DNA of 64,000 nucleotides from contig JAGBFU010000064.1 of the NCBI GenBank assembly GCA_017936285.1, positions 1-64,000 on the forward strand. Direction: 5' to 3'. Under the pieces are notes generated by a model. The model was not told the origin of the DNA. It saw only the letters and a list, made by a program, of their open reading frames with translations, and made no database searches. This DNA comes from Marinifilaceae bacterium. Its GTDB lineage: Bacteria > Bacteroidota > Bacteroidia > Bacteroidales > Marinifilaceae. A program made the translations under genes and the position numbers. Of the stretch, positions 2,412 through 54,843 are shown in pieces; the stretch's first letter is position 1; each line of letters opens with the position of its first letter.

Positions 2412-5034
2412 TCAATAACTTTTCCAGTGAGTATTCGTCCATTAATACACTTCTTGGCTTGCTTCCGGATGCAGGGCCTACAATACCCTCGTTTTCAAGT
2501 TGATCCATAATGCGTCCGGCTCTGTTGAAACCAATTCCGAATCTGCGTTGAAGAGCCGATGTAGAGCCCTGCTGGCATCCCACCACAAATCGTGCACACT
2601 CTTCAAACATCTCGTCGCGTTTGCCACCGCCTCCATTCATAGTTACCTCCATTCCGTTATCTTTATTTTCGGCTACATACTCTGGCAGTTCATACGCTGT
2701 GGGGTAGCCCTGTTGATTGGCAATATGTTGTGTAATCTTCTCGACCTCGGGGGTATCAACAAAGGCACATTGAATTCGTGTAACCTCGTTTCCGACAGAT
2801 ATAAGCATATCGCCTCGTCCAATCAACTGGTTGGCTCCCGGGGCATCAAGAATGGTTCGTGAATCTACCATCTGAGCCACCTTAAAGGCTATTCTGGCAG
2901 GGAAGTTTGCCTTGATGGTACCGGTAATGATATTGGTAGATGGACGCTGTGTGGCAATAATCATATGAATACCCACTGCGCGTGCCAATTGGGCAATACG
3001 GCATATCGGTTTTTCAACCTCCTTTCCTGCAGTCATAATCAAATCGGCATACTCATCTACAATTACCACGATATATGGCAGATATCGGTGACCATTGTTT
3101 GGATTGAGGTGACGTTTCGAGAACTTCTCATTATACTCCTTTACGGTACGGCAGTAGGCCTTTTCCAATAGAGAGTATCGGTTATCCATCTCTATGCACA
3201 ATGAGTTAAGAGTGCTTACAACCTTGTCATTCTCGGTGATGATTGGTTTCTCTGCATCGGGGAGCTTTGCTAGGAAGTGCTTCTCGATAATTGAGTATAT
3301 ACTCAACTCAACCTTTTTAGGGTCGATCATCACAAACTTCAGTTGTGCAGGGTGCTTCTTGTACAGAAGCGAGGTTATGATGGCATTCAAACCTACCGAT
3401 TTACCCTGTCCGGTTGCTCCTGCCACAAGCATGTGGGGCATCTTTGCCAAATCGAAGGTAAATGGTTCATTCGAAATGGTTCTTCCAATAACTACAGGCA
3501 GGGCATATTTTGACTCCTGGAACTTTTTCGAAGCAATCAAATCCTTCATAGGCACTATTTGAGGATTGCGATTTGGAACCTCAATACCTACTGTTCCCTG
3601 ACCCGGAATAGGTGCAATGATTCTGATACCCAAGGCAGATAGGCTAAGTGCTATATCATCCTCCAGATTCTTGATTCTTGCAATCTTGACTCCTGGTGCA
3701 GGTACAATCTCGTAGAGGGTTACTGTCGGTCCGATGGTCGCCTGGATTTTAACGATATCTATCTTGTAGTTTTGAAGAGTTTCAACAATTCTCTTTTTGT
3801 TGGCCTCAAGCTCCTCGTCGGTAACAATAGATGTTTCGCTCTTTACATCTGCAAGCAAATCAAGAGTGGGGTATTTGTAGTATGATAAATCGAGGGTAGG
3901 GTCATAATCGGGAAGATTCTCAGTTATTGTCTCAATCTCCTGAATCTTGTTTACCTCGAATTCAATATTATCCTTCTCCTCTGTTTTATTTTCATTTCCA
4001 TTATTCTCTTTAGCCTGGTCATCATCCTGCTCCTCGGCCTCCCTTGCAGCACGCTCCTCAGCCTCACGCTTCGCCTGCTCCTCGGCCTCCTTTGCAGCAC
4101 GCTCCTCGGCTTCACGCTTCGCCTGCTCCTCAGCCTCCCTTGCGGCACGCTCATCTGCCTCACGCTTCGCCTGCTCCTCGGCTTCACGCTTCGCCTGCTC
4201 CTCAGCCTCCCTTGCGGCACGCTCATCTGCCTCACGCTTCGCCTGCTCCTCGGCCTCCTTCGCAGCACGCTCTTCTGCCTCACGTGCTTCACGCTCTGCT
4301 CGTTCTGCAGCTCTCTGCTTACGAGCCTCGGCCAGCGCTGCACTACGTTTGCAGCAGCCTCGCCATGTTGCGAATAGCGAGTTTGTACACCAGTCAAATA
4401 CTCTTCGGAATCCGAATAGAAGAATCAGAGCAAGTGTTACAAACAGCAACAAGATTGTACCTCCGTTACCGATAGCTCTGCTTAGCCACATACTGATGTA
4501 GTAGCCGTGAGCACCTCCAAGGTACAGGTGTCCGGTATCAGCTCCTGTCAGTTCGGTATATTTGAAGGATACATAACCTAAAAACAGGGATGCCCATATC
4601 ATTATTGCTAACGATACAACAACGTGTTTAGCGTAACCTGTAAATCGTGGAGTAAGCACTCGGACTCCGGTTGCAATCAATATGTAGCAAATGGCAAATG
4701 CTCCCAATCCTACACACCTATTTATAAGATAGGCTGAAATTTTTGCCCCAAGAGGGCCGCATAGATTCTCTGCATCAACATCGATGGAGAGAATATCATA
4801 AAAGCCTTTGCCGGCAACATGATTATCCACTCCTCCATAGAACAGGAAACTAACCATTGCAATCAGCATATATATTGCAATGACTATAATCAGCAAACCT
4901 ATAGTAATCTTAAAGTTGTCGCCCTTAAGAAATGACAAGTCGGGTTTGATAGCACCATTTCCTCCCTTTCTTGTTCTGGGTTTTTGTGGTCTATCCTTAC
5001 TCTTCTCCTCTTTTTTATAAAATACTCTCTTCAT
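2401..5034 (-). CDS. ftsK: DNA translocase FtsK/SpoIIIE
   Basis: An 877-residue septal DNA pump that clears and aligns chromosome termini during division. The N-terminus has about four membrane spans (residues 42-210). A charged linker (about 230-345) follows, then the motor: Walker A GATGQGKS at 539-546 and a Walker B block VVIVDEYADL. The C-terminal gamma winged helix (about 810-877, FGIGFNRAGRIMDQLENEG) binds orientation sequences. The linker is a run of 8-residue repeats (see separate entry) instead of the usual Pro/Gln-rich linker. It is the first gene of a minus-strand operon with the CPBP protease and C1 peptidase, and follows purC after a 168-bp gap. Confidence 0.97.
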   Translation of the reverse strand: MKRVFYKKEEKSKDRPQKPRTRKGGNGAIKPDLSFLKGDNFKITIGLLIIVIAIYMLIAMVSFLFYGGVDNHVAGKGFYDILSIDVDAENLCGPLGAKISAYLINRCVGLGAFAICYILIATGVRVLTPRFTGYAKHVVVSLAIMIWASLFLGYVSFKYTELTGADTGHLYLGGAHGYYISMWLSRAIGNGGTILLLFVTLALILLFGFRRVFDWCTNSLFATWRGCCKRSAALAEARKQRAAERAEREAREAEERAAKEAEEQAKREADERAAREAEEQAKREAEEQAKREADERAAREAEEQAKREAEERAAKEAEEQAKREAEERAAREAEEQDDDQAKENNGNENKTEEKDNIEFEVNKIQEIETITENLPDYDPTLDLSYYKYPTLDLLADVKSETSIVTDEELEANKKRIVETLQNYKIDIVKIQATIGPTVTLYEIVPAPGVKIARIKNLEDDIALSLSALGIRIIAPIPGQGTVGIEVPNRNPQIVPMKDLIASKKFQESKYALPVVIGRTISNEPFTFDLAKMPHMLVAGATGQGKSVGLNAIITSLLYKKHPAQLKFVMIDPKKVELSIYSIIEKHFLAKLPDAEKPIITENDKVVSTLNSLCIEMDNRYSLLEKAYCRTVKEYNEKFSKRHLNPNNGHRYLPYIVVIVDEYADLIMTAGKEVEKPICRIAQLARAVGIHMIIATQRPSTNIITGTIKANFPARIAFKVAQMVDSRTILDAPGANQLIGRGDMLISVGNEVTRIQCAFVDTPEVEKITQHIANQQGYPTAYELPEYVAENKDNGMEVTMNGGGGKRDEMFEECARFVVGCQQGSTSALQRRFGIGFNRAGRIMDQLENEGIVGPASGSKPRSVLMDEYSLEKLLNEL
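4027..4287 (-). repeat. 24-bp tandem repeats encoding the FtsK charged linker
   Basis: About ten imperfect 24-bp units encode 8-residue repeats alternating between EAEEQAKR and EADERAAR-like forms (FtsK residues about 250-336). The Glu/Lys/Arg/Ala pattern resembles a stable single alpha-helix. The low-complexity DNA leaves several long open frames on both strands, which I regard as by-products. Confidence 0.85.
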
Positions 5035-46152: not shown

Positions 46153-46992
46153 ATGGTTAATTGTATTGAAATAGACGGCAAAAAGATTGATTTTTCCAAT
46201 AAAGTTGTAATGGGGATATTAAATGTCACCCCCGACTCCTTTTTCGATGGAGGATGTTACAGTTCTGAAGTTGCGTTGCGCAATAGAATTGATCAGATTT
46301 TGGGCGAGGGTGCAGATATTATTGATTTAGGTGCTTACTCAACACGTCCCGGAGCACCGGATGTCTCGGTCGATGAGGAGTTGAAACGATTGGATGTTGC
46401 CATGGAACTTATTCGCCGATACCATCCTGATGCAATTGTCTCGATTGATACATTTCGGTCGTCAGTTGCAAGTGCAATTAATCGTTGTTTTGGTCCGGTT
46501 ATAGTAAATGATATATCGGGAGGAACAATGGATCCGGATATGTTTGATTTTGTTGCAGAGAGTGGGTTACCATACATTATGATGCATATTCAGGGAACTC
46601 CTGAAACAATGCAGGATAATCCTGAATATGACGATGTTACGTTGCAGGTTAAGGCGTTCTTTCAACAAAGAGTATCAATGCTTGCTGAACGAGGTTTCTC
46701 GAATTTGATTCTTGACCCGGGATTTGGGTTCGGTAAGAGAATTGAACACAATTATAAACTTCTGAACGAGATGGATTCATTGATTGATCTGGGATTCCCA
46801 ATTTTAGTTGGAGTGTCAAGAAAATCAATGATTTATAAGGTTATTGGTGGTGCTCCTGCTGATGCTTTAAATGGTACGACTGTTTTGAATACCATTGCTT
46901 TGCTCCGTGGTGCTTCAATTTTGAGAGTGCATGATGTCAGACAGGCTGTTGAGACGGTGAGGTTGGTTAAGGAATTAGTAATTAGGAATTAG
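46153..46992 (+). CDS. folP: Dihydropteroate synthase
   Basis: Joins 6-hydroxymethyl-dihydropterin diphosphate with p-aminobenzoate in folate synthesis; this is the sulfonamide target. I use the ATG at 46153 (279 residues, MVNCIEIDGKKIDFS); an extension to 46117 runs through the promoter region. Motifs are GILNVTPDSFFDGG, GADIIDLGAYSTRPGA, VSIDTFRSSVA, VNDISGGTMDPDM and DPGFGFGKRIEHNYKLL, with VGVSRKSMI. The last codons (GAA TTA GTA ATT AGG AAT TAG) are part of a short GGAATTAG tandem repeat that continues past the stop. Confidence 0.95.
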   Translation: MVNCIEIDGKKIDFSNKVVMGILNVTPDSFFDGGCYSSEVALRNRIDQILGEGADIIDLGAYSTRPGAPDVSVDEELKRLDVAMELIRRYHPDAIVSIDTFRSSVASAINRCFGPVIVNDISGGTMDPDMFDFVAESGLPYIMMHIQGTPETMQDNPEYDDVTLQVKAFFQQRVSMLAERGFSNLILDPGFGFGKRIEHNYKLLNEMDSLIDLGFPILVGVSRKSMIYKVIGGAPADALNGTTVLNTIALLRGASILRVHDVRQAVETVRLVKELVIRN

Positions 46993-47357
46993 GAATTAGG
47001 AAAAATCGTTCAAGGTGAGTGCAGAAGCCAAGTTTACTTGGATTATGCCGCACCGCAGCCGATTTTGCGGAAACACTTTGTGTTTGCGAATTAGGAAAAA
47101 TCGTGCAAGGTGAGTGCAGAAGCCAAATTTATTTGGATTATGCCGAACCGCAGCCGATTTTGCGTCATTGCGCAGCAATGGCGAACATTAGTGCAAGCCG
47201 AACGCAGAAGGCAAACTTGTTTGCATTATGCCGAACCGACGCTGCGGAGCGAATGCAGAAACCAAGTTTACTTGGGTTATGCTGAGCCGCGAGGAGTAGA
47301 AGCACACGAAGTGTGGTTAACCACAGCCGATTTTGCGGAAACACTTTGTGTTTGCGG
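46984..47357. repeat. Tandem hairpin repeat block (four degenerate units)
   Basis: After a short GGAATTAG tandem run, four units follow (about 46994-47088, 47089-47183, 47184-47250, 47251-47357). Each has a first small hairpin: CCAAGTTTACTTGG (47028), CCAAATTTATTTGG (47123), GCAAACTTGTTTGC (47211), CCAAGTTTACTTGG (47262). Each has a second: AAACAC/GTGTTT (47071), CATTGC/GCAATG (47166), CGCT/AGCG (47240), CACAC/GTGTG (47303), with AAACAC/GTGTTT again at 47339. Linker words such as GATTATGCCGAACCGCAGCC are shared. This fills the 441-bp folP-nitroreductase gap; short ORFs within it look spurious. Confidence 0.85.
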
Positions 47358-53457: not shown

Positions 53458-54843
53458 TTATCTTGTACGGCTTATTCTACCTCCGCCACCGCCAACATTG
53501 CGGCTTGCTCCTCCACCTGTAGGACGGCTGATTGAACTTCCGCCGGAGCGAGTTGGTGTACCGCTTCTATACGAACCGCTGTTACTTGGTCTTGTAACGC
53601 GACTGCTGCCACTATTCGTCGGACGAGTTACCCGACTACTACTACTGTTGTTGCTTGGACGAGTCACCCGACTGGTGCTACTGTTGCCGGTAGGTCTTGC
53701 TACCTTATTACTATTACTTTTACCGGGTCTTGTAACGGTTGTGGTGCCACTGCCATTTTGTGTCGGTCTGCTACTTTCAACTCTTGAGTTACCATTATTC
53801 TGTGTCGGTCTGTTGTTATCAACTCTTGTACCATTCGGTCTTCCGTTTGTTGTTCCCGGTCTTACAATCTGATCCTTTTTATTGTCAGGAGCGCCATTGC
53901 CGCCAACAACTCCACCGCCAACTCCAGGTCTCTGGGTTGTTCCCGGGGTGATGGTTTGGCCACCTCCCGGAGTTGTTGTAGGCCTCCATTTGCCTTGATT
54001 CGGACGGTGTCCTGGTTCCGGTTTCGGTGAGTGTCCGGGTTTGTTCGGCCCGGTCGGATTGTGAGGTCGGGTGTGTTCAGGTCTGTGTGGCCTGTAGCCC
54101 GGACCAGGGTAATATCCCGGATGGTGTGGTTTGTGGTGCGGGCCCGGATAATATCCCGGATAGTGATGTCCGTAGTAAGGATCATAGTAGTGATGATGGT
54201 GGTGATACCATGGGTCGTAGCACCATGGATCGTAATGATGAGGGCCATAGTACCATGGATCGTAATACCATGGATCGTAGTACCATGGGTTGTAATACCA
54301 TGGAGTTGCTACACTATAACTTATACCAACTCCAATACCGATTGATGTTCCGAACCTGACTCCTGCTCTCCATCGGTATGGAGAGTAGTCAAAGAATACA
54401 ATATCGGCAGAGGGGTATGGGCCAAACAGAAAGTCTGTGTAGATTGCGTAGTTGAGAGAGGTAGGAAACCACCAATATCTCCCATTTGATACAAAGACAT
54501 TCCAGTCGCTGCTGAAGGCCATGCTTTCGGCAATTGAAGCCTCGTTCGATACCATGTATCCAAATCCGTTAGGGTAGTTGCCGATAATGTCGTATGCTCT
54601 TCTCAGGTCAGCTTCACTGCCATCCCAGCCACCTAACCAATAACCCTCGATTTTTGGGGTATAATAAACAGGTTCCGGTGCCGGGGTTGAATTTACCACT
54701 ACCACACTCTTTGTGGCTTTTTGGGGTGCATAGTATATACCGTCACTATAATAACCGCTCTCAGTCCCTGTTGAATACAGGGAGATACATGATACGCATA
54801 ACCACGCACATAAACTTGCAAAAATAGGTGTTACTCTTTTCAT
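53458..54843 (-). CDS. Repetitive Tyr/Trp/His- and Arg/Pro/Ser-rich lipoprotein
   Basis: A 461-residue protein with a probable lipobox (LCVSC, Cys at about 19). Residues about 60-180 look folded (YWLGGWDGSEADLRRAYDIIGNYPNGFGYMVSNEAS). A segment at about 180-245 repeats WYYDPWYYDPWYY-like units and runs of His. Then comes a Pro/Gly/His-rich stretch (YYPGPHHKPHHPGYYPGP) and a C-terminal half of RVTRPTN/RVTRPSN repeats ending in GGGGRISRTR. I do not recognise a family for the whole protein. Low complexity and aromatic and His content suggest surface or metal/polysaccharide contact, but that is guesswork. Confidence 0.8.
   Translation of the reverse strand: MKRVTPIFASLCAWLCVSCISLYSTGTESGYYSDGIYYAPQKATKSVVVVNSTPAPEPVYYTPKIEGYWLGGWDGSEADLRRAYDIIGNYPNGFGYMVSNEASIAESMAFSSDWNVFVSNGRYWWFPTSLNYAIYTDFLFGPYPSADIVFFDYSPYRWRAGVRFGTSIGIGVGISYSVATPWYYNPWYYDPWYYDPWYYGPHHYDPWCYDPWYHHHHHYYDPYYGHHYPGYYPGPHHKPHHPGYYPGPGYRPHRPEHTRPHNPTGPNKPGHSPKPEPGHRPNQGKWRPTTTPGGGQTITPGTTQRPGVGGGVVGGNGAPDNKKDQIVRPGTTNGRPNGTRVDNNRPTQNNGNSRVESSRPTQNGSGTTTVTRPGKSNSNKVARPTGNSSTSRVTRPSNNSSSSRVTRPTNSGSSRVTRPSNSGSYRSGTPTRSGGSSISRPTGGGASRNVGGGGGRISRTR

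Follow-up and report, generated by a model that had tools for sequence, protein, structure and literature searches.

A dispersed hairpin repeat of Bacteroidales with a conserved single-strand fold and features of a non-autonomous mobile DNA element

The tandem hairpin array examined here is probably one copy of a mobile DNA element of Bacteroidales that is non-autonomous, has about 67–95 nt per unit, and whose working form would be the fold of one strand. The array lies in a 64,000-nt stretch from a Marinifilaceae bacterium (contig JAGBFU010000064.1), the whole of which is referred to as the window. A preliminary description had noted hairpins that change in sequence and keep their pairing, and had offered either selection for folding or the copying of one arm from the other as the cause. 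We report here the organization of the array, its distribution, the evidence for the fold and its mobility, and the alternatives to the proposed reading.

Organization of the array

The array spans positions 46970–47357 of the window; its first letters lie within a heptamer run, at about 46970, and its last is at 47356. It is placed between a folP-like gene (Pterin_bind, end 46992) and a gene of the nitroreductase family (start 47434). The repeating unit is AAAATCG-[TGCAA, hairpin 1, GNNGC]-CGATTTT-GCG-[hairpin 2]-GCG, and consecutive units are separated by AATTAGGA. The array contains two such units in full, after which come a third hairpin 1, a variant module and a final hairpin 2 that closes it (Table 1). 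The repeat array of the preliminary description is real, although it starts at about 46970 and its unit is longer than was noted there. The arms then assigned to hairpin 1 (CCAAGT/ACTTGG, CCAAAT/ATTTGG, GCAAAC/GTTTGC and CCAAGT/ACTTGG) are all present in the sequence. Those assigned to the second hairpin (AAACAC/GTGTTT, CATTGC/GCAATG, CGCT/AGCG and CACAC/GTGTG) are present as well, but the four are not all homologous, as neither CGCT/AGCG, found at the base of the fourth hairpin, nor CACAC/GTGTG, from a separate module, is homologous to hairpin 2 proper. The latter has at least 65 copies in the genome, 56 of which are perfectly paired, in the forms AAACAC, CATTGC, CACTGC and AAACGC. The variant module 'D' is also found in many arrays of the source genome and of its sister species. 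Two decay mutations are seen in unit 1 of the window array, where TGCAA has become TTCAA and the second GA has become GC.

Table 1. Features of the array, in positions of the window.
Feature	Position	Strand	Basis
Heptamer run (AGGAATT)n holding the array	46970–47002	+	Tandem Repeats Finder, period 7
Unit 1, hairpin 1	47000–47068	+	Covariance model match, 75.5 bits
Unit 1, pieces of hairpin 1: outer arm AAAATCG; hairpin; outer arm CGATTTT	47002–47008; 47009–47059; 47060–47066	+	
Unit 1, hairpin 2: GCG G AAACAC TTT GTGTTT GCG	47067–47088	+	Sequence
Inter-unit spacer AATTAGGA, identical to the target heptamer	47089–47096	+	Sequence and empty sites
Unit 2, hairpin 1	47095–47163	+	Covariance model match, 87.8 bits
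Unit 2, outer arms AAAATCG; CGATTTT	47097–47103; 47155–47161	+	
Unit 2, hairpin 2: GCG T CATTGC GCA GCAATG GCG	47162–47183	+	Sequence
Unit 3, hairpin 1, GCC type, with chimaeric 3′ arm ACC and without outer stem	47183–47251	+	Covariance model match, 46.9 bits
Fourth hairpin, variant module 'D': TGCGGAGC-GA-A-T-GCA...TGC-T-GA-GCCGC	47243–47290	+	Sequence
CACAC GAA GTGTG hairpin, then GGTTAACC	47303–47327	+	Sequence
Closing CGATTTT arm and last hairpin 2 (GCG G AAACAC TTT GTGTTT GCG)	47328–47356	+	Sequence

Copy number and distribution

The repeat is dispersed and intergenic, lying between genes throughout the source genome. A 25-mer searched with up to three mismatches gave at least 72 matches (31 + 41) in about 45 clusters of this 1.98-Mb genome, and the reversed control of the 25-mer gave none. 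Chance is excluded by these 72 matches against none in the control, together with the covariation tests described below. A covariance model found at least 84 hairpin units in the 49 loci fetched from the source genome; these copy numbers come from pattern and model searches and are lower bounds. Many clusters sit at contig ends, a sign that the assembly breaks at the repeat.

In the sister species (G001), the pattern matched 33 times. An exact pattern covering only the 5′ half of hairpin 1 matched 74 stretches in GTDB genomes, nearly all of them titled Bacteroidales or metagenome-assembled genomes (MAGs) of Bacteroidales families. With the covariance model, the fold was present in 41 of 247 sampled Bacteroidales genomes, representing 31 of 174 genera; per-genome counts in this survey were recorded up to 20, so that a count of 20 means at least 20. 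The phage, plasmid and viral-contig collections searched held no copy of the repeat, and carriage by a phage or plasmid was rejected for this reason. No earlier description was found by sequence or keyword in open-access papers, subscription literature being outside the scope of that search.

Conservation of the fold

The consensus fold was obtained by hand parsing of 145 copies and from alignment A1. From the outside in, it consists of an outer stem X/X′, a bulged U, GC:GC (or GA:UC), an AA/GNN internal loop and three base pairs, followed by tandem GA/GA, one base pair, a bulged N, GCA:UGC, a stretch of two base pairs bounded on either side by G.A, and a variable apical hairpin. In 36 diverse copies, 93.0% of the pair cells were paired, compared to 77.8% when shuffled and 32–40% when slid. 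Since the pattern that fetched this first set fixed only the 5′ half, the pairing of the 3′ half is independent of the search. A second set of 93 copies (90 distinct) from 50 loci of further genomes gave 95.9%, compared to 78.9% shuffled and at most 47% slid. Here 20 of the 23 pairs had changed on both sides, including pairs that were invariant in the first set.

Covariation against a phylogenetic null, the test named in the preliminary description, was assessed with a tree-aware null of our own, in which substitutions were redistributed on a FastTree tree in 40 simulations. Seven of the 23 pairs were significant at E ≤ 0.05, as were none of the non-pairs, and the 12 top-scoring column pairs were all predicted pairs; alignment A2 of the second set was fitted to the covariance model, which introduces a bias toward structure that the null does not remove. 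Selection for folding, as one of the two causes originally offered, thus finds strong support in copies of many genera, the tree-aware null included.

When folded by energy as DNA, a procedure blind to the alignment, the written strand gave the same structure with z values of −4.2 and −3.8, and its complement folded much more poorly (z of −1.5 and −0.6). RNA energy folding of the written strand gave nearly the same structure. The written strand is the structured strand, and neither the strand data nor the G.T and A.C data separate RNA from single-stranded DNA. Over the tree, G.T and A.C intermediates numbered 15.4 vs 14.6 events in the core and 18.2 vs 6.7 in the outer stem. Counted as distinct forms in the source genus, they were 6 vs 2 in hairpin 1 and 7 vs 1 in hairpin 2.

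The features most conserved across the order are the unpaired ones, namely the tandem G.A, the bulged U, the AA/GNN internal loop and the flanking G.A, and it is the paired letters that turn over. The outer stem and the apical hairpin vary in sequence with their pairing kept, and mismatched chimaeric arms occur among the copies. Rfam gave no match at the gathering score in 20 carrier loci and chance-level matches only in the window, on which grounds a known RNA family was rejected. A kink-turn was rejected by eye, as the 3-nt bulge is missing beside the tandem G.A.

Insertion and genomic placement

The flanks of source-genome loci were searched in the sister species, the loci sampled being those filled in the source genome. 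The array is missing in the sister species at all seven orthologous sites where both flanks are colinear. One pair of loci (L015/L238) presents a clean insertion into a TTAGGAA run, and at the window locus the sister species has a different heptamer run (AAAGGTG/A) and zero hairpins. In genera g125 and g105, an array of one species may be lacking in another or be longer or shorter by whole units of about 83 nt, and the arrays of G123 and G224 likewise differ by whole units. Since the seven sites all differ in one direction and the heptamers are left behind, the empty sites are likelier to reflect insertions than deletions, though some may be deletions. Insertion polymorphism between related genomes, as seen at these seven sites, is a feature shared with MITEs. 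As for the target-site duplication of MITEs, the target here is either already a 7-nt repeat or an arm of which each unit carries a copy.

In the source genus, the element sits in TTAGGAA heptamers, the heptamer runs being its landing sites. By simple ORF calling with contig ends left out, the element in the source genome was found to be co-directional with the upstream gene in a ratio of 21:6 and with the downstream gene in a ratio of 20:8. A different placement was seen for the subfamily whose left arm ends in ATAG, where the left gene is divergent (29:6) and the right gene unbiased (17:16). Bacteroidetes promoters have the −7 box consensus TAnnTTTG (PMC7366714), to which the ATAG-type left arm is complementary. 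In the second set, 41 of 53 arrays have such a left arm, and TTTG lies exactly 20 nt from the −7 box complement in 20 of these 41, compared to 2.8% in shuffles, the copies being related and the cases not independent. The arm ends about 4 nt before rnpB (RNase P RNA) at L207 and about 10 nt before a tRNA-Gly gene at L179. The two loci come from different species of one genus; the upstream edge of the rnpB promoter in one, and of a tRNA-Gly/tRNA-Leu promoter in the other, consists of the element. For the pair L292/L287, the element-less ortholog of L292 retains TGCAAAGATA, a −7 box, at the same position, indicating that the box predates the element there. In most promoter contexts neither neighbor transcribes the folded strand as sense, which favors a role at the DNA level.

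Search for a mobilizing enzyme

Three candidate families were surveyed, Y1_Tnp (the REP transposase family), reverse transcriptase (RVT_1) and IS110 (PF02371), and no mobilizing enzyme was found among them. The source genome has no Y1_Tnp gene, and neither do 12 of the 15 genomes with at least 13 copies of the element. Around 20 Y1_Tnp genes, 8 of them in carrier genomes, no element was detected within about 2 kb at E ≤ 1. Y1_Tnp was present in 12 of the 16 match-free genomes of the same survey, a negative association that may partly follow genome size. RAYT/IS200 as the mover was rejected because Y1_Tnp is missing from the source genome and from most carriers, and the lead toward a RAYT given in the preliminary description was not borne out. 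RVT_1 and IS110 were rejected because they are missing from the source genome and from 9 and 14 of those 15 genomes, respectively, and do not track the element. The mover is not evidently an IS200/REP-type (Y1) enzyme.

Proposed mechanism and alternatives

We propose that the fold would form on single-stranded DNA, at a replication fork or an open promoter, where a structure-specific recombinase or transposase supplied in trans may bind it and join it to a target. Selection for being recognized would then lead to compensatory changes. In the sequences compared, insertion is site-biased, favoring TTAGGAA heptamers in the source genus and, in other genera, the upstream border of −7 promoter boxes, and arrays gain or lose whole units. 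Counting against this DNA reading are the lack of a mobilizing enzyme among the three families surveyed, the co-directionality with both neighbors in the source genus, which an RNA element might show, and the excess of G.T over A.C in the outer stem and in the source genus, which is also predicted for RNA.

We consider it unlikely that the hairpins instead act in transcripts (at 3′ ends, on stability, in termination or in binding proteins) and owe their spread to a benefit that the RNA structure brings to the host or to the element itself. Such an RNA element would agree with the RNA folding, with the co-directionality and with the G.T excess among the distinct forms of both hairpins in the source genus. 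It would also agree with the tandem G.A, as such motifs are common in RNA. However, in the subfamily linked to promoters the left gene does not have the folded strand as its sense strand (29:6) and the right gene shows no orientation bias, the conserved core has no excess of G.U over A.C events, and neither the 20 carrier loci nor the window yielded an Rfam family.

It is improbable that the repeat is a promoter-regulatory module under selection, in which the −33 region ahead of −7 boxes is supplied or replaced by the element and transcription is tuned by the fold, perhaps as an extruded DNA hairpin. The frequency of the TAnnTTTG complement, the 20-nt spacing of TTTG, and the rnpB and tRNA-Gly neighbors would all be expected of such a module. 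On the other hand, the TTTG spacing is inherited with the element, the −7 box is older than the element in one ortholog, and other genera, the source genus included, have outer arms unlike the −7 box. Promoter function was rejected as the primary role in general, since most genera retrieved with the first pattern have such arms.

A REP element mobilized by a RAYT that has since been lost or was missed is largely refuted and very improbable. The element is indeed palindromic, intergenic, multicopy and arrayed, and in Bacteroidetes the structures that flank RAYT subclass 2.6 are atypical and lack GT[AG]G (PMC6006769), but the distribution of Y1_Tnp among the element-rich genomes and the surroundings of the 20 genes argue against it. 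Least credible is template-switch (quasipalindrome) correction of one arm from the other with no selection on the fold, to which the mostly perfect arms of the source genus could be attributed, as mismatched chimaeric arms persist and correction would erase the imperfections that recur at the same positions in unrelated copies order-wide. Selection on the fold is for this reason a better cause than arm copying, and the copying suggested in the preliminary description is unsupported.

Within the reading as a mobile DNA element, we tentatively entertain a wider possibility. The hairpins might be an order-wide class of transposase-less DNA elements, spread by a structure-specific recombinase or by the host replication or transcription machinery on single-stranded DNA. 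Their insertion might be guided to melted −7 regions in several genera, repeatedly rebuilding the upstream halves of promoters, rnpB and tRNA gene promoters among them. If the mobile-element reading is right, Bacteroidales would carry an abundant class of mobile hairpins that change fast, are maintained by their shape alone and have no known mover. This class would fragment MAG assemblies, as many contigs of the source genome end in the repeat, and in several genera it would lie exactly at the upstream edge of promoters. It would provide a clear lead toward a new DNA enzyme with structure specificity, and the rewiring of promoters in gut bacteria could be studied in it as a natural experiment.

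Comparison with known systems

The element works like a structure-recognized mobile DNA hairpin of the REP or attC type, without the GTAG REP/RAYT features that were tested. With REPs and BIMEs, it shares short, multicopy, intergenic (extragenic) imperfect palindromes with conserved bulges, occurrence in clusters, and presence or absence between related genomes. It differs from them in the hairpin foot, where TGCAA or TGAAA, enclosed by the outer stem, stands in place of GTAG or GTRG, and in that its arrays are head-to-tail whereas REPs form inverted pairs. Its units are 67–95 nt, with two hairpins in the source genus and a variable outer stem and apical hairpin. Most carriers are without a Y1 transposase, and none of the 20 Y1_Tnp (RAYT) genes tested is flanked by the repeat. 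The attC sites of integrons are recombination sites that are recognized as a folded single strand through bulged bases and have a variable terminal structure. The likeness to attC lies in these general fold features, and no cassettes were seen in the arrays of the element.

CGTC-tagged REPs (PMC3733652) are likewise palindromic repeats without a dedicated transposase and have been reported also from Bacteroidetes. They have an 8–9 bp stem, a 4–5 nt loop and a CGTC foot, none of which is found in the element. The atypical secondary structures of RAYT subclass 2.6 (PMC6006769) share with it the occurrence in Bacteroidetes, the multiple copies and the lack of GT[AG]G. However, they flank tnpA genes, whereas the element flanks none of the 20 tested Y1_Tnp genes and thrives without them; the two are set apart by description, not by sequence. 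The BrickBuilt MITE of Porphyromonas gingivalis (PMC4596501) is also an intergenic repeat of Bacteroidales with internal tandem repeats, and its ends have promoter activity. It is a 23-nt minisatellite whose terminal inverted repeats resemble IS ends, and no conserved two-hairpin fold is described for it in the passages considered here.

Other repeats near the element and in the window

Many intergenic regions are filled with degenerate heptamer runs (TTAGGAA, TTAGGAG and TGAACAG, with AAAGGTG/A in the sister species), which also flank most arrays (L009–L053). In the window, the run at 46970–46992 supplies the final codons (VKELVIRN) and the stop of the folP-like gene, which ends in VNKIR in the sister species. 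A second dispersed repeat, TCTACCAACCCCCTAAA...GGGGGTTGGTAGA, occurs at L026, on the reverse strand downstream of the element, and at L032, and is partly missing at the orthologous site of G001. A further repeat, GTCTTGTCCTAAAATAGGTTTACATATAATACGTTAAATTTGTAAACATTATTTAGGATGATTC, adjoins the arrays at L010, L013, L033, L048 and L049 and is possibly a small IS-derived element. Three loci in Paludibacteraceae MAGs (L095, L098 and L133) have a palindrome around GGTCCCTGAGCCTGTCGAAGGGCC nested inside the apical loop of the element. The window holds other tandem arrays at 4026–4296 and 54198–54304, made up of 24-nt units rich in GCTCCTCGGCCTC, which are probably coding, and of 15-nt units TACCATGGATCGTAG.
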